31,851 bases of DNA from a virus: IMG/VR virus record IMGVR_UViG_3300025093_000071, positions 1-31,851 of that record, one strand, 5' to 3'. The position numbers were made by a program, and so were the translations under genes. The notes beneath the pieces are model-generated. The model did no database searches. It saw only the letters and a list, made by a program, of their open reading frames with translations, and was not told the DNA's origin. Shown here piece after piece: positions 2,671 through 29,384 of the stretch (position 1 is the first letter of the stretch; each line of letters begins with the position of its first letter).

Positions 2671-3036
2671 GCATAAAATAAAAAAAAATATAAACACCAC
2701 CAACACCAATATATATTTCCTTCCCAGTTCATCGAAGCAAACAAAGAATAAAAAAATATACAACATAATCATTTTATCATCCATCAAACATTCCACATAT
2801 CGGTAAACTGTTTACACTCAACACAAAACAAAACAATAACTATCCGAAACGATATAACCATCTTATCAAAATAGATAGGTCTGGATTGTCTATCTGTTCG
2901 GTATACTGGGGAGAATAGAGAGAATAGAACTGGGCCTGTCCTACACTCTATTCTTCTATAATCCCCTAACCATCGACACCATAGCATATCCAAGGGAAGA
3001 AGGTTTTATCCAAGGCAAGGTTTTTTGTACACCTGC

Positions 3037-3095
3037 GCGAACTCCTTGACGCGTCCGGGTAGACACGTGCCTATGTGTGCGAACTCCTTGACGCG
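3037..3095. repeat. Two 17-bp direct repeats, 42 bp apart
   Basis: GCGAACTCCTTGACGCG occurs at 3037-3053 and 3079-3095. The start-to-start distance of 42 bp is four helical turns. Each copy is followed by CACGTGC; after the second copy this sits in a 12-bp palindrome GCGCACGTGCGC (3093-3104). They lie upstream of the rightward promoter and look like binding sites for an activator or repressor. Confidence 0.6.
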
Positions 3096-3235: not shown

Positions 3236-3592
3236 ATGATGAAATTGGTAGATATGTACCGTGCGGAGTTGGAGTATTTGTCCGGTAAATACGGAAGAAC
3301 TCACTTTGTATATGTGTATGATAAGACCGCTAGTATGTTTTCGGCTTTGTCCAAAGGTAAGTGGCCACACGCAGAGACATATATAGAGTTTGACTTGGGA
3401 TTGATTTTGGTGCATTTGTGTGAGATTGAGTTTGATACAGATTCACCGAATATGCAGACATACCGGCACAGTGTGCTTCGGCATCCAGGTGTGGGTAGGA
3501 AGAAGAACGTTGATGTTGTTGTGCATCATAAGTTTGATTTGTATCAGATACTGAATGGCAGAAATGTGTCTTTGTGGTCTGGTGGTAAATGA
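3236..3592 (+). CDS. Hypothetical protein coupled to the methyltransferase gene
   Basis: This protein of 118 residues is the first gene of the rightward arm, with GGAG upstream. It has no recognised domain. It is a soluble alpha/beta-looking protein with several hydrophobic strands (FVYVYDK, GLILVHLCEIEF, NVDVVVHHKFD). The stop overlaps the methyltransferase start (ATGA at 3589-3592), which implies coupled translation and possibly a related job, such as an anti-restriction or DNA-modification partner. That is positional inference only. Confidence 0.75.
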   Translation: MMKLVDMYRAELEYLSGKYGRTHFVYVYDKTASMFSALSKGKWPHAETYIEFDLGLILVHLCEIEFDTDSPNMQTYRHSVLRHPGVGRKKNVDVVVHHKFDLYQILNGRNVSLWSGGK

Positions 3593-4437
3593 TTACCATT
3601 GGTAGCCTGTTTAGTGGTATTGGTGGCTTTGAACTGGGCTTGGAGCGTGCGATACCTAACAGTAAGACGGTATGGCAGGTGGAGCAGAATAAGTATTGTC
3701 GTCGCGTGCTTCGTAGACATTGGCCTGATGCGAAGTTGTATGATGATGTTGTTGGTGTTGGTAAGGATAATTTGGATTCAGTAGATGTGATATGTGGTGG
3801 GTTTCCTTGTCAGGGGTTTAGTAATGCTGGTAAGAAGGAGGGTTTGAATGATGGTCGGTCTGGTCTTTGGTGGGAAATGCACAGAATCATTAGCGAGTTA
3901 CGACCAAGAGTCGCGGTGTTGGAAAACGTGCCAGCACTCCTTATTCGAGGAATCGAAGAAGTTCTTGGGTCGTTGGCCGAAATCGGGTATGATGCAGAAT
4001 GGTGTGTTATACCAGCAGGCGGAGCCGGTGGTTTCGGAGCACCACACCAACGTAAAAGATTGTTCATTGTTGCCTACTCCTCTGAAGTCAGACGTGGACA
4101 AACACGGCACAGGGGGGCTTGTGCGAAGAATAACGTATCCAGAAGGACAGAAGAGATACAGTCAAGGAGATTACCGCAATCTTCCAACGCCAACAAAACA
4201 TTTACACCAAGAGTACGGAAGTCCCTCGGAGTGGAATCGCAAAGACCCTTCACTGATAACACACTTCATAGAACCGGGTTTGGATACTGGGGAACGACCG
4301 AGGCTCCATCCCCCGTTTGTCGAGTGGATGATGGGATACCCAATAGGTTGGACAAGTTGCGAGCACTCGGAAATGCAATTGTCCCTCAGTGTTCAGAGTG
4401 GATTGGCAGACGAATAGTGGAGGCAGGATTGTTATGA
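3589..4437 (+). CDS. DNA (cytosine-5)-methyltransferase
   Basis: This 282-residue enzyme would methylate cytosine at C5 in a specific DNA site using S-adenosylmethionine. All key motifs are visible: SAM-binding GSLFSGIGGFE (5-15), catalytic GGFPCQGFS (70-78, nucleophile Cys74), ENVPAL (112-117), QRKRLFIVA (154-162), and the C-terminal RALGNAIVPQ (about 258-267). The target-recognition part between about 165 and 240 is short and Arg/Ser-rich. No restriction endonuclease is adjacent, so the likely role is protecting phage DNA from host restriction. From codon 87 on, the gene is overlapped by another open frame in +1 (3848-4417). Both ends overlap neighbours by ATGA. Confidence 0.95.
   Translation: MITIGSLFSGIGGFELGLERAIPNSKTVWQVEQNKYCRRVLRRHWPDAKLYDDVVGVGKDNLDSVDVICGGFPCQGFSNAGKKEGLNDGRSGLWWEMHRIISELRPRVAVLENVPALLIRGIEEVLGSLAEIGYDAEWCVIPAGGAGGFGAPHQRKRLFIVAYSSEVRRGQTRHRGACAKNNVSRRTEEIQSRRLPQSSNANKTFTPRVRKSLGVESQRPFTDNTLHRTGFGYWGTTEAPSPVCRVDDGIPNRLDKLRALGNAIVPQCSEWIGRRIVEAGLL
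3848..4417 (+). CDS. Overlapping +1-frame ORF within the methyltransferase gene
   Basis: This frame has no stop for 189 codons and ends 20 bases before the methyltransferase does. The start has an exact AAGGAGG five bases upstream of ATG ATG, stronger than most gene starts in this genome. The protein shows CWKTCQHSLFEESKKFLGRW, repeated LPTP motifs (SLLPTP, NLPTPT), PSLITH, and PFVEWMMGYPIGWT near the C-terminus. From memory, many phage genomes carry proteins with SWKTSQ, PTPTA and FVEWLMGFP.GWT motifs. The FVEW block overlaps the motif IX-X region of the methyltransferase, so such proteins may be overprinted partners of C5-methyltransferases. The function is unknown. The risk is that the open frame is a by-product of conserved methyltransferase codons; expression is not shown. 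Confidence 0.5.
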   Translation: MMVGLVFGGKCTESLASYDQESRCWKTCQHSLFEESKKFLGRWPKSGMMQNGVLYQQAEPVVSEHHTNVKDCSLLPTPLKSDVDKHGTGGLVRRITYPEGQKRYSQGDYRNLPTPTKHLHQEYGSPSEWNRKDPSLITHFIEPGLDTGERPRLHPPFVEWMMGYPIGWTSCEHSEMQLSLSVQSGLADE

Positions 4438-5960
4438 TTGAGAAGTTACCAAAGAAGATTCGGCAAGAACTGGAGCCAGTATTAAGAGACCCAGTAAAGT
4501 TTATTCAGTTGCTGAAAATCCAAGATAAACATTCTGGTAAACTGATTCCATTTGCGCCCAACAATGAACAAGTGGCATTGTTGAAGAAGTTGAAGAAGAA
4601 CAAGAAGGTTATCATCTTGAAGCCTCGACAGATTGGTATATCTACGGTTCTTCGGGCGTATGCCCTTTGGCGCACATACCAGACCAAAGACCCTTTGAAG
4701 TTTGGTGTTATTAGTTTCCACGAACGGTCAGCAAAACATCTGCGAAAGATGGACAGTATGATGCACAACTCTCTTCCAAATATATTGCGGAAGAATCTGT
4801 CGATTGACAATAGTACCACTTTGGAGTTTGGAGATACTGGTGCACAGTTATCTTCCTTTACTGCCGGTTCCAAAGGTGGTACGCGTTCTTTTACTTTGTC
4901 TTCAGTCCATCTATCGGAGTTTGCGTTTTATGACGATGCGGAAGAAATGCTCGCGCAAGTTGTTGCGACGATTGGTCAAGGTCAGATTATTATTGAAAGT
5001 ACTCCTAATAAGCCAGGGGATGTCTTCCACCGTCTTATTATGGGTGCTCCTGAGAACGGTTGGCATTTAATCTCGTATTGGTGGCACGACCACGAGAAGT
5101 ACCGGTTGCCCGCTCCAAAAGATTTTGAGCCTACCGAAGAAGAAAAACATTTGATAAAAGCATATGGTTGCTCGTTTGATCAACTGAACTGGCGAAGACA
5201 ACAGATAGCGACTATTGGTGTTGAGAAGTTTAAACGTGAGTATCCAGGTTGTTTGGATGATGCGTTCCATTTCGCAGCGTCAACCTATTTTACACTAGAG
5301 GACATACGTGAGATTGATGAAATACATTTTGACGGCAATGAAAGATTGTATGAAGATCCTAGAGATGACGACGTATACGCAATGGGTGTCGACGTTTCTG
5401 CTGGTGTTGGTGGTGACTATTCAACTATATCTGTTATTTCTATGGCTACATTTCAGCCTGTATACCACTATCGGAATAATCTAATAAGTCCTTCGGCCTT
5501 TGCTGATGTTGTATTACAAATCGCACAGTGGTTTAACAATGCTCGTGTTTTGTGTGAAAGCAACAATCACGGACACGTGGTACTTTATCGCCTTCGCCAT
5601 TTGGGTTATCGGAATCTATGGTTAGACCATAATATGAAAGATTGGACAACAACAACAAAATCCAAACTTGATGCCTATGAAACACTACGAGAATATGTAA
5701 CACAAGGTATGATTATGAAGATGGATGCTCAAGTATTACAGGAACTTAGGGCATTGGTTGTAACAAAAATATGTCCAGAAGCACCACGGGGTATGCACGA
5801 TGACTTGGCAATGTCTCTTGCTTTGGCATACCGTTGTTTGCGTGATATACCAAGACGGAAACTAACTTTGGCTAGACGGAACTTGATGGATGTGCTAATC
5901 TCAGAAACAAGGGCACGTCGAACTAAAGAACAGCCTGTACCTTGGAAGAAGAACGTATGA
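4434..5960 (+). CDS. terL: Terminase large subunit (TerL)
   Basis: This is the packaging motor: an ATPase that pumps DNA into the prohead and a nuclease that cuts the concatemer. With the ATG at 4434 (overlapping the methyltransferase stop, GGAGG 10 bases upstream) it has 508 residues, a typical size. Visible motifs are Walker A KPRQIGIST (63-71), Walker B-like VHLSEFAF with Glu162, and the coupling motif IIEST (186-190). The RNase H-like nuclease site has GVDVSAGVGGDYS (Asp320), CESNNHG (Glu375) and HDDLAMSLALAY (Asp456/457). The longer in-frame ORF from 4389 has no ribosome site. The portal follows with an ATGA overlap. The small subunit is not adjacent but far away at 28932. Confidence 0.95.
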   Translation: MIEKLPKKIRQELEPVLRDPVKFIQLLKIQDKHSGKLIPFAPNNEQVALLKKLKKNKKVIILKPRQIGISTVLRAYALWRTYQTKDPLKFGVISFHERSAKHLRKMDSMMHNSLPNILRKNLSIDNSTTLEFGDTGAQLSSFTAGSKGGTRSFTLSSVHLSEFAFYDDAEEMLAQVVATIGQGQIIIESTPNKPGDVFHRLIMGAPENGWHLISYWWHDHEKYRLPAPKDFEPTEEEKHLIKAYGCSFDQLNWRRQQIATIGVEKFKREYPGCLDDAFHFAASTYFTLEDIREIDEIHFDGNERLYEDPRDDDVYAMGVDVSAGVGGDYSTISVISMATFQPVYHYRNNLISPSAFADVVLQIAQWFNNARVLCESNNHGHVVLYRLRHLGYRNLWLDHNMKDWTTTTKSKLDAYETLREYVTQGMIMKMDAQVLQELRALVVTKICPEAPRGMHDDLAMSLALAYRCLRDIPRRKLTLARRNLMDVLISETRARRTKEQPVPWKKNV

Positions 5961-19909: not shown

Positions 19910-22900
19910 ATGACTCCAGAGGAAAGAAAAGAGTATTTAGATAAAATCTTTGAGGATTATCAATCAGGAAAAATAACTCTTGAAGAATCAAGAAGGTTGC
20001 GTGCTCAAGTTCCTCCTGAGTTTATTCCTCCACCACCAACACCAGTTGAAACACCATTACCATATCGTCCGGTATCTGATGTTGACAAGGCTACATCACA
20101 AGCAATCGATTCAGTTGCATTACGATATAGTGTTGAGCAAGGCCTATCACCAGAAGAAGCCTATCGGAAAGCAAGAGAAGAAGTTGAAGCACAAATCAAA
20201 CCAACAACACAACAATACACACCAGAACCAGCAATAGGTTTGTCTCGTATTGTTGATGTTGAAAAGGGTTTGGTTCGGGATGCACAGACAGGAGAGATAA
20301 GACCAGGAACTTCCGCAGAACTTATTGGACAATCTTTTCTTCGACAGCGTCTTGGTACACAAGAAGACATTGAAGCCGGTTTAAAAGTACAGCGAGAACA
20401 GGCTAGACGTGAATCATTTGAACGACAAAAGAGACAAGAGTTAGCACGTATTGAAAGAGAGAAGGCTGGTGTTACTCCATTGGAAGAAATGGGTTTTCGG
20501 GCTTTGGAGTTTGGAGAAGAGTTTGGTCTTGGTACTGTACCTGAAACAGCAAAAGAAACTGCGACAGAGTATCTTATAGCACCATCTACACAGACAGGTG
20601 ATGTGTATGAAAGTACATTGAGTGCTTCATTACGTGCCATAAATACATTGCCAGCCGCAGCTGCAGCTGCATATGAGCGTACAGTTCCTGGAATGAAAGA
20701 ATCTGAAATGTACAGAATAGCAGACAGTGGAGAGTTTTTAGATCAAGTTGCTGTCAACATTGCAAACATACAAGGATTGCCAGAAGCATTTGCAACGAAT
20801 GAAGTCTTGTCTGATATAGGTGGAGAGAATGTTGCTTGGTGGGCTGGACTTGTTACAGAACTTCCAATGCCTGTTGGGCCAGGGTTAGTTGCTAAACCAA
20901 TTGTAAAAGGTTTATCAAATGCTTCAAAGACCAAAGCCACACAAAAGATGGTCGACCAAATGTTTGAAGATGTGGGTATGCAAGGAGTATCTTCAAAGAA
21001 TGTTGTTGAACGATACTCTGATAGTATTCCTGATTTTCAAAAGAATGCAAAGAGAAACAATCTTGTCAGCACTTCTTCTGAAGCAGTAGCAGAGCATCTT
21101 GCTGTATTGCATACTGTTCGGGCTGGATTAGATGCCAGTCCTGATGGGATAAAGGTTACTGATCTTGACTCCTTAAGTTCAACCCCGACTGGATTATCTA
21201 TTTTAATTAATGCTGGGCCGACTGATACACTAACAAAAGCCAACTCAGGTAAGTTTGTTACTGAGCAGTTAGACAAATTTAAAAACGCTGCAAAGACAAA
21301 TCCAGATGTTGCACGTATTTACAATGAAGGGGTATCTGCACAAAAACGAGTAACAGAAGGATTAAAACGCAGTACTACACCAAATCGTGTAGCAACAACA
21401 ACACTGACCACAGATTTTGAATCGCAGTTGGTTAAAAATAAAATAGGTCGCTTGCTTGCTGAAGGTAAGATTACAAAGAAAGACCTTGTTACAAATTTAA
21501 ACTATGCAAAAGGTAAGAAAGGAAAGTTAAGTAAGAATGATATTGCTCGTATTAATGAGAAGATAAAAAGATTTGATGACCCTTTGTTTCAAGGTGATGC
21601 CTATATATTAGACGATGTGTACTCTGCATTGAGAACAACATTACGAACACCAATTAAAGAAAGACTTCTCAACTTCTTGCCTACTGACTTATCATTGATT
21701 GCAGGTGATACAGTCATCAATACAAGTGCAAAAGGCAACCGATTTTTCAACTCCAAGAACTACAAGAAGTTTATCAATGAGCAGAAGAACTACAACCAAA
21801 ACATTTCTTTTGATGCCAAAACAAATACATACAAAGTTAATGCTTCTATCCAGGAGGACTTGGTAAAAGACATCATTGATTATTTCGGGCCAGATAGAAT
21901 CAGACAGTCAGAAGGATTAAGAGAGTTATTGTCCGATGTTCTTGAAGGTACAATCAAGGTAGGCAATAGGGACTTGGTTGGTAATGCATACAAGGCACAG
22001 GGTGCGGTACGACATCTTGGTGGTTTTAAACTGCGTGAGGCTGGAGAACAATACAGAAGAGCTGCACTTGCACCAGAGTTTCGTGGTGATGTTGTTGCTG
22101 TTAGTGAAGCACAGGAACTGAGTAAACAACTGGGCAAAGGGTTTATCGGTCAAGTTGTTAGAGATTTTAAAAACGTCAAGAAGGCCTTCTCACAGCCTGC
22201 AGAAATACTAGAAGGCATACAACCCTCTATTGGTTTTGCTGAACTCAGTAAGCAGTTAAACGGCGCGCAGGATAAGGTTGTGGAGGAAACAACCAAAGAG
22301 TTGGCACGTTTAACAAAAAAATATGGTGGTGATGGTGTTCGGGCTTTGGATGAGTTGGGTTCTGAATCATACAATATGGCTGTCAAGAGTGTAGATGATT
22401 ATACAGATAAAACTGCACAAAATGCTTTTAATGGTTCATACATTGATTACATTGAAACATTTGTAGAAGAACGATTTAAAAATGATTTGCTTCGCCGTAT
22501 TAGATATAAGATACGTCAACAAGAAAATCTTTTAAGACCCGTAGTAGATTTTGTAGGTGAAGATGAATTGTTAAAACAATATTCTCGTTTACAAAAATAT
22601 GCCAATCAAGTATCAAGAGAAGTATTACTAGACCACCAACGTTACTTTACCAAGTTGGATGCTTGGAAGTCTATGGTTACTCGATACTATGGCGCAACAA
22701 AAGTAAACGCTTTGTTGAAGGATGATTCTGGTTTCAGAAGGATTTTGCTTCCAGATGGTGCACAACTACAACCGTTGGCTTCAAACATTCTTGATATATC
22801 ATTCAGTAACTTTGTAACAATTACCAAACGAATGAAGAATCAATACCCTAGTTTAGACCCGTTAAAAACAATGGTGACAGGTAAACCAGTACCAACAATA

Positions 22901-25189
22901 CCATATGCTGAGTGGTTGATAGGAACTCGGAGTGGTAACATACTCTCTGACCTTCAGGCAAAATGGATAGACCAAAACCCTAGATACCGTTTGCAGTATT
23001 ACCCAGACTATACAAGTTTTGCCGCACAAACAGATTTATCTCCACTGGTTAATTCATATGCCAATATGATTTTTAAAAACATAGATTCAATTAAAGGACA
23101 GATTTTCAAAGGAGATGTTGATACGGGTAGTGCTCCTGTATTGGGAATAAATAATAATGCATTAGTGGAAGGAATAGATGATTTTGCAAAACTTCATTAT
23201 GAAACAGTAAAAAAGATTTCAGAAGCACAACGAGAAACAATCATCAATAAACTTATTGTTTTGATGCGAGAACAAAAGACATTGTATCCAGACATTAGCA
23301 AAATGCAGGGGTCATTTAAGCAAGAGTTGGCTATTCCAAAAAAGATAATGGATGCACAAGTTAATAAGTTTTTGCGTAGTGTATTTCCTAAAGCAAAACC
23401 AGATAACTTAGCAAAAATTTCTGAAAGTATGAAGAATGATGTTTGGAACTTGATGCTTGATCCTCCACCGCCTGATGGTAGGTATTATGGTGGTGCTTCG
23501 ATGTCTGTCTTGATGGATTTATCAGATAGTCTCCGGCAGTTTTATCGTGCCAATGGTTTGGCTGTTGGTAATGACATTGTGGCTACAATGGATTCAAATA
23601 TCCCACTTTTCCAACGCATAAAAAATACTCCATATGCACAGATGTATGGGGCAAATATGGCTTCAGATGTAAACCGTATGAATGATATGGCAAAGTCTGG
23701 TAAACTCCGTGAAATGATGAATAGTCTTCGGAAGTCTGATGCAGAAACAACAGAGATTATAAGTGGTACATTATTGAACCTTGTATCTTGGACACGTCGT
23801 AGTATGACACAAGGATTGTTGGGTGGGTTTCCGCTTCCTGGTACACGATACTTGGGTATCAATATATTCTCTGCACCATTTATTATGATGGGTACTCTTG
23901 GTTTAAGTCGTACATTTAGTGCATTTAGTCCTAAAAGATTATCGTCTGCGATTCGTCAGGCAATGTCAATAACTCAGATACCAGATGATGTAGTTGTAAT
24001 CACAACAAAACAGGGCAGAAAGTATACAGCAAAAGAGTTGCGATTATTGGAAAGCCAAAACAATCTTGGTCTTACTACTGGGCGCGTACAGTTTTACGAA
24101 AATCACGCAGGCGAAATGATGACCGCAGCAAATCTTAATGTTGCTGGACAGGAGATTGGTTTTCCAACAAAGTTAATCTCACAGTTAAATCCTGGTCAAA
24201 GAAATTTATGGTCACATATTGCTGATGCAACAGATATGACATATCGTCGGTCTGCTTTTTACAGTGCCTTGGCTGATGATATGCCAATAGATCAGGCTGT
24301 GGATATAGCCAAACGCTCGTTGTTGGACTATGGGGCAATGAGTAAAATGGAACGACAGGCAATGGAACGTGGTTTAATGTTTTGGTCGTTTGCCAGACAA
24401 ATACATTCTGAGTTTCTTAATGCAATGGCCAAGGCTGTTATTGGTGGTACAAGTCACAAGTTTGTTATCTCAGCAATGAGAGCCTCAATGAAACAACAAA
24501 ACAGGGCAGGCTCTTGGTACAATGGTGATGACAGTGTATACAGCAGAGTCTATTCATTCTGGGCTGGAGAACAAGACAATCGTCCATCATACACATATGG
24601 TTTTGATAATCCGTATGCACAAGCATTTGATACGTATGTGACCTTTGCTTCTTTAATCGCCGCACCAGAGAACATAGACGATGCGATTGTAAAAGCATTG
24701 ACAACTGGACGTGTGCGCCCTGGCCTTGATCAAATACGAAAAGTTTTAACAAACAAATATGGTAAGCGTGTACCATCAGATGTAATATATCTGGCTAAAA
24801 GTTTGGACATTTGGCCGTGGTTTCAAGAACAGTTTAAGGTAAAGTCTGTTCGTTCTGGAGAACGTCTTCGTTTGGGTGAGCCAACTTTTGATGGGTATCA
24901 ATATGAGTTTGCCGATGAAGCAAAGATGAAAGAGTTTTCTCAGTGGTTGTTTGCATTTACTTTGCTTGGTGTACAACGAAATATACGAGACTATACAAAA
25001 ACAACAATGGCATTTGATACACAACCAGAGGGTATGGACTTAAAACGTATGCAAGACCCAAATGCATTATTGTATTTACTAGGATTGGAGACAAGTCTTC
25101 AAACAAAAGATATAATGGATGCAAGTTTTCAGAATCAAAAACGTATTGAAACAGAACTTAAACAAATAATAAAACAAAATAAATATTAA
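19910..25189 (+). CDS. Giant internal virion / ejection protein, 1759 residues
   Basis: This is by far the largest gene, about one sixth of the genome. The N-terminus is acidic-helical with a Pro-rich linker (EFIPPPPTPVETPLPYRP), then long helical regions. A part around residues 1290-1330 (QGLLGGFPLPGTRYLGINIF and MMGTLGLSRTF) is hydrophobic enough to touch a membrane. I could not find a lytic transglycosylase, peptidase or polymerase motif. Size, order and composition fit the largest ejected protein (gp16-like) that extends the tail across the envelope. The region around 20650 encodes an AAAAA run. A multi-domain polyvalent protein is an alternative. Confidence 0.65.
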   Translation: MTPEERKEYLDKIFEDYQSGKITLEESRRLRAQVPPEFIPPPPTPVETPLPYRPVSDVDKATSQAIDSVALRYSVEQGLSPEEAYRKAREEVEAQIKPTTQQYTPEPAIGLSRIVDVEKGLVRDAQTGEIRPGTSAELIGQSFLRQRLGTQEDIEAGLKVQREQARRESFERQKRQELARIEREKAGVTPLEEMGFRALEFGEEFGLGTVPETAKETATEYLIAPSTQTGDVYESTLSASLRAINTLPAAAAAAYERTVPGMKESEMYRIADSGEFLDQVAVNIANIQGLPEAFATNEVLSDIGGENVAWWAGLVTELPMPVGPGLVAKPIVKGLSNASKTKATQKMVDQMFEDVGMQGVSSKNVVERYSDSIPDFQKNAKRNNLVSTSSEAVAEHLAVLHTVRAGLDASPDGIKVTDLDSLSSTPTGLSILINAGPTDTLTKANSGKFVTEQLDKFKNAAKTNPDVARIYNEGVSAQKRVTEGLKRSTTPNRVATTTLTTDFESQLVKNKIGRLLAEGKITKKDLVTNLNYAKGKKGKLSKNDIARINEKIKRFDDPLFQGDAYILDDVYSALRTTLRTPIKERLLNFLPTDLSLIAGDTVINTSAKGNRFFNSKNYKKFINEQKNYNQNISFDAKTNTYKVNASIQEDLVKDIIDYFGPDRIRQSEGLRELLSDVLEGTIKVGNRDLVGNAYKAQGAVRHLGGFKLREAGEQYRRAALAPEFRGDVVAVSEAQELSKQLGKGFIGQVVRDFKNVKKAFSQPAEILEGIQPSIGFAELSKQLNGAQDKVVEETTKELARLTKKYGGDGVRALDELGSESYNMAVKSVDDYTDKTAQNAFNGSYIDYIETFVEERFKNDLLRRIRYKIRQQENLLRPVVDFVGEDELLKQYSRLQKYANQVSREVLLDHQRYFTKLDAWKSMVTRYYGATKVNALLKDDSGFRRILLPDGAQLQPLASNILDISFSNFVTITKRMKNQYPSLDPLKTMVTGKPVPTIPYAEWLIGTRSGNILSDLQAKWIDQNPRYRLQYYPDYTSFAAQTDLSPLVNSYANMIFKNIDSIKGQIFKGDVDTGSAPVLGINNNALVEGIDDFAKLHYETVKKISEAQRETIINKLIVLMREQKTLYPDISKMQGSFKQELAIPKKIMDAQVNKFLRSVFPKAKPDNLAKISESMKNDVWNLMLDPPPPDGRYYGGASMSVLMDLSDSLRQFYRANGLAVGNDIVATMDSNIPLFQRIKNTPYAQMYGANMASDVNRMNDMAKSGKLREMMNSLRKSDAETTEIISGTLLNLVSWTRRSMTQGLLGGFPLPGTRYLGINIFSAPFIMMGTLGLSRTFSAFSPKRLSSAIRQAMSITQIPDDVVVITTKQGRKYTAKELRLLESQNNLGLTTGRVQFYENHAGEMMTAANLNVAGQEIGFPTKLISQLNPGQRNLWSHIADATDMTYRRSAFYSALADDMPIDQAVDIAKRSLLDYGAMSKMERQAMERGLMFWSFARQIHSEFLNAMAKAVIGGTSHKFVISAMRASMKQQNRAGSWYNGDDSVYSRVYSFWAGEQDNRPSYTYGFDNPYAQAFDTYVTFASLIAAPENIDDAIVKALTTGRVRPGLDQIRKVLTNKYGKRVPSDVIYLAKSLDIWPWFQEQFKVKSVRSGERLRLGEPTFDGYQYEFADEAKMKEFSQWLFAFTLLGVQRNIRDYTKTTMAFDTQPEGMDLKRMQDPNALLYLLGLETSLQTKDIMDASFQNQKRIETELKQIIKQNKY

Positions 25190-28545: not shown

Positions 28546-28951
28546 GATTGTTGTACATCATTCCGCATCGAAGCAATCAACTACTCGTGACCAGATTGAT
28601 CGTTGGCATAAAGATCGTGGTTGGTCTGGAGTAGGGTATCATTATGTGATAGAATCAGATGGGTCGATAATGATGGGTCGACCATTTGAGAAGATCGGTG
28701 CTCATACTAAAGGAAATAATGGTGATAGTATTGGTGTTTGTGTTGTTGGTAATTATGAACAAATTGATTCAATGACACCAGGGCAACACCAATCTCTTGT
28801 TGTTCTGTTGCACGGTTTGATGGGGCAGTTTGATCTTGCTATTGATGACGTGTACGGTCATCGAGAGTTGGGTTCGAGTGCCTGTCCAGGAGAACATCTA
28901 TTCAAGTGGCTATCAGATTGGAGAGTGCAGTATGCCAAAGGCGAAGTCTAG
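28529..28951 (+). CDS. Endolysin: N-acetylmuramoyl-L-alanine amidase (T7 lysozyme-like)
   Basis: This 140-residue zinc amidase (Amidase_2/PGRP fold) cuts the bond between muramic acid and L-alanine in peptidoglycan for lysis. The putative zinc ligands are His10 (KIVVHHSAS), His111 (YGHREL) and Cys119 (SSACPG). Tyr37 in GYHYV matches the catalytic tyrosine, and GDSIGVCVVGN is a family hallmark. The residue two before the Cys, a catalytic Lys in T7 lysozyme as I recall, is Ser here. No signal peptide is seen, so a holin is needed. GGAGG lies nine bases before the ATG. Confidence 0.93.
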   Translation: MRQINKIVVHHSASKQSTTRDQIDRWHKDRGWSGVGYHYVIESDGSIMMGRPFEKIGAHTKGNNGDSIGVCVVGNYEQIDSMTPGQHQSLVVLLHGLMGQFDLAIDDVYGHRELGSSACPGEHLFKWLSDWRVQYAKGEV

Positions 28952-29384
28952 CGAACCCAGAGACTTTTCAACAGGTCTTACCCACAAACAACTTAAGTGT
29001 GCTCAGTTGATTGCAGAAGGATTGTCCGGTGCAAAAGCTGCAGAAGCGGTTGGAGTACACGCGCAAACAGTTCAGAACTGGAAGAAGATCCCAATCTTCA
29101 AACGAGTTATGACCGAGTATAAACCACCGGCACAACACGTTATAGCGTTGCTTCCAATGAAAGAGCACACTCCGGAGGCACTGGACGAGCGTCTTGCCCA
29201 GTTGGTGTGCCCTGCTGTTGAAGCAATGGGTCATATACTGGGTAGTCCTCAATCAAACGATATGGCTAAAATCCAGGCTAGCAAGTTCGTTTTGTCGACA
29301 CTATACCAACGTTGGGTACACAGTCAAGATGTTGCTCCTGAGCAGTTGAAAGACTTGAAGGAAGCCCTACGCATTATAAAATAA
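28932..29384 (+). CDS. Terminase small subunit (putative)
   Basis: This 150-residue protein starts at ATG 28932, inside the end of the amidase gene (GGAG upstream). The N-terminal helix-turn-helix LTHKQLKCAQLIAEGLSGAK with AAEAVGVHAQTVQNWKK (about 15-51) is typical of small terminases that recognise the packaging site. The rest is helical for oligomerisation. It is the last rightward gene, separated from terL by over 24 kb within the arm. A generic HTH regulator is the alternative, but phBC6A51-type small terminases look like this. Confidence 0.75.
   Translation: MPKAKSSEPRDFSTGLTHKQLKCAQLIAEGLSGAKAAEAVGVHAQTVQNWKKIPIFKRVMTEYKPPAQHVIALLPMKEHTPEALDERLAQLVCPAVEAMGHILGSPQSNDMAKIQASKFVLSTLYQRWVHSQDVAPEQLKDLKEALRIIK

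Follow-up and report, generated by a model that had tools for sequence, protein, structure and literature searches.

A gene nested in a second frame of a phage C5-cytosine methyltransferase gene very probably encodes the enzyme's small-domain subunit

Introduction

The two genes of the m5C methyltransferase M.EcoHK31I overlap in different reading frames. This enzyme, specific for YGGCCR, is made of two polypeptides, the larger carrying motifs I–VIII and X and the smaller motif IX (Lee, Kam & Shaw 1995, via PMC3404938); in the literature, the recognition domain is predicted to belong to the larger one. In M.AquI, another two-polypeptide m5C methyltransferase treated in PMC3404938, the split falls after motif VIII, and the second chain consists of the distal variable region and motifs IX and X. 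The structures of M.HhaI and M.HaeIII are those of monomers, with the small domain in-chain.

Here we consider a C5-cytosine methyltransferase gene of a viral contig (IMG/VR record IMGVR_UViG_3300025093_000071; "the window" is the whole 31,851-nucleotide stretch that was analysed) that contains a long open reading frame in its +1 frame. This nested frame is a genuine gene and both frames are under selection. Judging from sequence, its product is very probably the beta subunit of an m5C methyltransferase made of two polypeptides, a presumed heterodimer with methyltransferase activity, whose alpha subunit is read in frame 0.

The layout resembles that published for M.EcoHK31I (PMC3404938), the large subunit having motifs I–VIII and X and the small one motif IX. 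The window system differs in being phage-borne with no restriction partner recognised among the ORFs scanned, and in that its variable region is selected in the small-subunit frame, whereas the published placement for M.EcoHK31I, in the large subunit, is a prediction. With M.AquI it shares the split after motif VIII and a second polypeptide with the variable region and motif IX, and the Corndog-type, Alma and RemusLoopin phage pairs resemble M.AquI. However, M.AquI has motif X on its small subunit, and the window has it on the large one (Corndog-type gp5 does carry X), and the overlap in the window, unlike the M.AquI layout as given in that source, spans the entire beta gene.

Results and Discussion

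Organization of the locus

The initial annotation had described a 189-codon +1 frame inside the methyltransferase gene, ending 20 bases short of it, and we confirm both position and length (Table 1). The nested gene begins with the tandem ATG ATG and ends with TAG. It is preceded, as had been noted, by AAGGAGG, but the spacing to the first ATG is six nucleotides and not exactly five; the same heptamer doubles as code for part of a Lys-Lys-Glu-Gly in alpha. The motifs that had been listed for the +1 product, namely CWKTCQ, two LPTP boxes, PSLITH and PFVEWMMGYPIGWT, are all present. When the window methyltransferase was shuffled synonymously, a +1 frame of at least 189 codons arose in only 6 of 20,000 shuffles, and the probability of the beta span being free of stops was 5e-5; simulated lengths of this kind had been proposed as a check, and the methyltransferase codons do not account for the 189 codons.

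Table 1. Features of the nested methyltransferase locus and its downstream neighbour (window coordinates)
Feature	Position	Strand	Remarks
Alpha subunit gene, C5-cytosine methyltransferase large domain, motifs I–VIII and X	3589..4437	+	282 aa; PF00145 E=2e-43
Shine-Dalgarno AAGGAGG for beta	3835..3841	+	6 nt ahead of the ATG at 3848
Beta subunit gene	3848..4417	+	189 aa, +1 frame relative to alpha, fully nested in alpha; PHROG_1008 E=1e-25
Beta N-terminal extension (CWKTCQ, WPKSGMMQNG), over alpha motifs V–VIII; putative docking region	3848..4060	+	Suppression at alpha fourfold-degenerate sites across the family
Apparent target-recognition region (LLPTP ... LPTP)	4061..4294	+	Substitution pattern; alpha frame here like an unconstrained linker, disordered in the model
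Motif IX, beta frame (RPRLHPPFVEWMMGYPIGWTS)	4295..4357	+	hhalign to motif IX of single-chain methyltransferases
CRVDDGIP, alpha frame	4318..4341	+	Forced out-of-frame reading of EWMMGYP (codon arithmetic)
Motif X (LRALGNAIVPQ), alpha frame	4360..4390	+	Sequence motif; helices with pLDDT 82-94
Terminase large subunit gene	4434..5960	+	PHROG_2 E=7e-34; start ATG overlaps alpha stop (ATGA)

The alpha polypeptide resembles only part of a conventional methyltransferase. Its match to PF00145 covers profile positions 2-181 of 324, approximately the first half of the model, and hhalign against the fused (single-chain) actinophage methyltransferases pairs alpha residues 2-167 with their residues 1-186 only (E=2.8e-56). 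Within this part, P73, C74 and Q75 as well as E112, N113 and V114 are invariant. The earlier view that the methyltransferase frame keeps its catalytic motifs holds for PCQ, ENV, GAPHQRKR (motif VIII) and LGNAIVPQ (motif X), but motif IX lies instead in the +1 frame. An AlphaFold model of alpha resembles the catalytic part of M.HhaI and M.HaeIII (Foldseek E 3e-16), both its catalytic core and its motif X helices being modelled with confidence. The two are linked by some 80 residues of low confidence, probably disordered, which correspond to the Arg/Ser-rich stretch flagged in the initial annotation. Since EWMMGYP forces RVDDG(L/I)P in the other frame, the RVDDG(I/L)P "motif" of the methyltransferase frame probably arises merely as a side effect of motif IX.

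The beta polypeptide, on the other hand, aligns by hhalign to motif IX of the single-chain actinophage enzymes (prob 97.2, E=2.9e-11), so that alpha and beta together hold the PF00145 features that alpha holds only in part: motifs I–VIII with PCQ and ENV, IX (in beta) and X (in alpha). Motif IX is the main direct sequence link between beta and the single-chain enzymes; the recognition region varies too much to be matched over the full length except by way of PHROG_1008. The profile of this family matches the window beta over segments 62-176 and 253-285 of 329 and also matches a fused methyltransferase (E=2e-81), and therefore spans both kinds of protein. PHROG_1008 is a sequence cluster, labelled "DNA methyltransferase", in which overprinted beta subunits are mixed with C-terminal halves of single-chain enzymes, and it is silent on overprinted enzyme halves. 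Proteins of the +1 type had been called common and unexplained in phages; they are indeed common, but partly explained already by this label and by the 1995 precedent of M.EcoHK31I, as reported in PMC3404938.

Searches of the PDB with the beta sequence, both single-sequence and profile-based, matched no structure, and Pfam and NCBIfam searches returned no model for it. AlphaFold run on beta alone gave a pLDDT of 58 and a pTM of 0.30, with only the motif IX block near 80, and Foldseek gave no useful fold match for this prediction; such a poor model of the lone chain is at most compatible with a subunit whose folding requires its partner.

The nested frame across the family

Loci fetched with beta would be biased towards open +1 frames, and so a second set was fetched with the methyltransferase protein alone. 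An intact, uninterrupted +1 homologue is found in 80/80 of these viral loci, which are the 80 top-ranking ones among at least 600 alpha-type matching stretches. Stops in the +1 frame of relatives, which would have counted against the gene, are thus absent, and the proposal that it is a widespread overprinted partner of phage C5-methyltransferases is borne out. The nested family occurs in viruses and in bacterial genomes of several phyla; Synechococcus phage S-H1 is one isolated phage that has it. At three loci (L048, L036 and L186) the N-terminal half of alpha is broken by a stop or a change of frame, which may represent decay or another split point.

Open frames and motifs of this kind might be nothing more than an out-of-frame reading of a conserved methyltransferase, and a part of the signal is indeed of this nature: the +1 peptides of shuffled methyltransferases score a median of 73-77 bits with the beta model, and some motifs are forced by the other frame (RVDDG in alpha and, on similar reasoning, portions of beta's WPKSGMMxNG). 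Real sequences, however, reach 173-185 bits. In a held-out set, the 66 of the 80 that are not close to the loci behind the beta model, 66/66 real +1 translations outscored all ten of their own shuffles. The medians were 173 bits for the real translations and 73 bits for the shuffles, the latter being the share due to the mere shadow of methyltransferase conservation. The length of the frame points the same way. In a set of 148 non-redundant genes, the median length of the longest +1 frame is 233.5 codons against a shuffle mean of 103.5, and this frame exceeds the shuffles at p<0.05 in 140/148 genes; the +2 frame of these genes has a median of 17 stops. Shine-Dalgarno-led starts, counted without the confounding requirement of an open frame, occur in +1 in 82% of cases vs 52% in shuffles, with no enrichment in the other frames and a depletion in +2. 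Together with the substitution patterns described below, which already contradict it, these results leave the purely mechanical explanation with a negligible probability.

Selection on the two frames

Constraint on synonymous sites of the methyltransferase frame had been proposed as a test of the nested gene, and excess constraint is present. The difference rate at alpha fourfold-degenerate sites, taken over independent pairs, is 0.471 before the overlap, 0.257 in the N-extension, 0.274 in the variable region and 0.102 in motif IX, and is back at 0.443 in motif X; the suppression thus starts and stops with beta. The fall from the region before the overlap to the N-extension is highly significant (Fisher p = 6e-27), the N-extension being lower in 41/45 pairs. 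The single close pair formed by the window and its relative L004 shows no synonymous suppression over the beta N-extension, and the constraint on this segment is for that reason a statement about the family as a whole.

In the variable region the pattern goes further. The pooled rates at methyltransferase codon positions 1/2/3 are 0.341/0.155/0.136, the pattern typical of a gene whose reading frame is +1, whereas the single-frame fused relatives give a normal 0.144/0.133/0.331 (their control pairs being mutually non-independent). Between the window and its nearest relative, L005, the corresponding alpha values are 0.40/0.21/0.11. The pooled rates come from a frame-neutral nucleotide alignment; an alignment in the alpha frame had given a mixed picture. 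In line with the earlier suggestion for the stretch between motifs VIII and IX, the +1 frame dominates selection between motif VIII and motifs IX/X.

Natural permutations of the methyltransferase segments

The positions of motifs IX and X were surveyed with a model to which fused and tail-split enzymes contributed only their C-terminal halves. Of 137 nested loci, 132 have motif IX in +1 by this model, compared with 2 of 274 shuffles; motif X is placed, weakly, in frame 0 of 36 of the 137, and nothing was placed in +2. The relatives present these same segments in several other arrangements. In MilanaBonita gp59, Tweety gp72, PFR1 Orf45 and Lton gp60 there is a single ORF, and these share with the window pair the catalytic half, the LLPTP repeats, a motif IX of the form FxEWMMGxPxGxVT and a motif X of the form GNGxxPxQA. 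The fused actinophage enzymes differ from it in using one frame, in lacking the beta N-extension and in their normal third-position pattern. Tail-split forms, in which a second ORF takes over beyond motif VIII and carries IX and X, comprise the Corndog-type gp6/gp5, Alma gp83/82, RemusLoopin 34/35, an Embleya plasmid pair and Orcanus 40/41, the last being separate ORFs with a 43-nt gap. At L070-type loci the recognition part is in +1 and motifs IX and X are both in alpha. Finally, inside the nested clade itself, motif IX has shifted from beta to alpha in two contigs, L057 and L059 (there at about 2420-2650), leaving a beta of N-extension and recognition region alone. Since the segments can swap chains or share one chain, the best reading of alpha and beta is that they make up a single enzyme, and that of beta, which carries the motif IX and the LPTP-rich variable region that single-chain relatives hold in-chain, as the missing small domain or specificity subunit.

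This series bears directly on the role first proposed for the +1 protein, that of an independent modulator or anti-restriction factor overprinted on a self-sufficient methyltransferase. Beta is indeed overprinted, widespread and selected in +1. Nevertheless, alpha is without motif IX and, to go by the selection pattern, without a recognition region; both are in beta, and both are in-chain in the fused relatives. Moreover, L057, having put motif IX in alpha, kept a beta with the recognition part alone, which is what one would expect if both belong to a single enzyme. The modulator role is therefore not supported, and we regard it as very unlikely.

The coexistence of forms also raises the question of decay, as the nested arrangement could be a frameshifted pseudogene of a fused enzyme. 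Within a single phage genus, the Cheoctovirus mycobacteriophages (loci L191-L208), the same methyltransferase is fused or split into two ORFs among close relatives (MilanaBonita, Madiba and Filuzino vs Kingsley and Ovechkin). In a quick unrooted tree of the catalytic half, however, nested loci from diverse phages and bacteria group in a single supported clade (SH-aLRT 100), apart from the clade of fused and tail-split actinophage enzymes, and both of its frames are under purifying selection. For the family, decay is thus contradicted, and there is next to no chance that it is the explanation.

A further alternative would dispense with a separate beta: ribosomes could slip from alpha into +1 after motif VIII and produce one chain with motifs I–VIII, the recognition region and IX. 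The order of the pieces in the two frames is such that this would yield a nearly complete single chain. Frameshifting nevertheless leaves unexplained why +1 is open, and synonymous change suppressed, upstream over motifs V–VIII, and it accounts no better for the enrichment of Shine-Dalgarno-led +1 starts. Motif X, which stays in frame 0 after IX, would call for a second shift, and the tail-split relatives have clearly separate ORFs, with a gap between them in Orcanus. We consider this improbable, and retain the two-subunit reading.

Genomic context

The methyltransferase is located between a small upstream gene and the gene for the terminase large subunit, and the overlap of the terminase start with the alpha stop argues that it belongs to the packaging operon. 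Since the scan of window ORFs recognised no restriction enzyme, the methyltransferase may serve orphan self-protection, that is, modification against host restriction.

The window has several other features of note. Upstream of the gene at 3236, positions 3034-3095 hold a 20-nt direct repeat (TGCGCGAACTCCTTGACGCG) whose second copy is 95% identical, with a spacing of 42. A gene similar to terminase small subunits (PHROG_2538; 28830-29384) is far from the large subunit at 4434; it adjoins an amidase endolysin gene, which its called start overlaps. The region of the virion genes includes a 1759-aa ORF (19910-25189) with no Pfam match, possibly an internal virion protein.

A proposed two-frame methyltransferase

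From these comparisons, beta is most likely the DNA-recognising half of an enzyme whose catalytic half is in the other frame. In such an enzyme alpha would provide the large catalytic domain, with the AdoMet site, the Cys nucleophile in PCQ, ENV and motif VIII, and its motif X would re-join the large domain after the linker. Beta would be started independently at its own Shine-Dalgarno sequence and ATG within the alpha gene, so that both halves would come from one mRNA; it would contribute the small domain, with the recognition region and motif IX, following the N-extension overprinted on alpha motifs V–VIII. The two polypeptides would then associate into a sequence-specific methyltransferase acting on phage DNA, and the pair would bind DNA, flip the cytosine and methylate it at a site set by beta.

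A broader proposal, which we hold with only slightly better than even confidence, is that these loci form a large and for the most part overlooked class of phage m5C methyltransferases in which catalytic and recognition halves came to lie in two frames by reciprocal overprinting. The N-extension would be new sequence on old alpha code and the alpha linker new sequence on old beta code, while the pieces would have moved repeatedly between frames (fused, tail-split, IX in beta, IX in alpha). In this class it would be beta and not alpha that sets specificity, which would revise the domain placement in M.EcoHK31I, and the beta ribosome site would dose the active enzyme.

A literature search of incomplete coverage returned no account of a phage-wide nested family and, as far as the literature searched shows, its taxonomic breadth and the series of permutations are undescribed. 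Relative to systems of the M.EcoHK31I type, the phage spread, the selection of the recognition region in beta and the natural permutations are new. An insertion element in a phage methylase (PMC11855218) also came under consideration; it is a different phenomenon from nested methyltransferase halves.

The literature has few long same-strand overlaps whose products are obligate halves of a single enzyme, and one restriction-modification enzyme was the precedent found here; the arrangement is common in viral contigs, beta being present in all of the best 80 of the alpha-type matches. A class of "hypothetical" +1 proteins is thereby explained, with a caution to annotators who keep only one frame and a warning that m5C specificity is not readable from the annotated methyltransferase frame alone. 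Split methyltransferases are already in use for targeted DNA methylation (PMC3439449), and the nested family offers ready natural ones. For the family itself, the series of fused, tail-split, nested and piece-swapped forms is natural material on how overprinting begins and persists.
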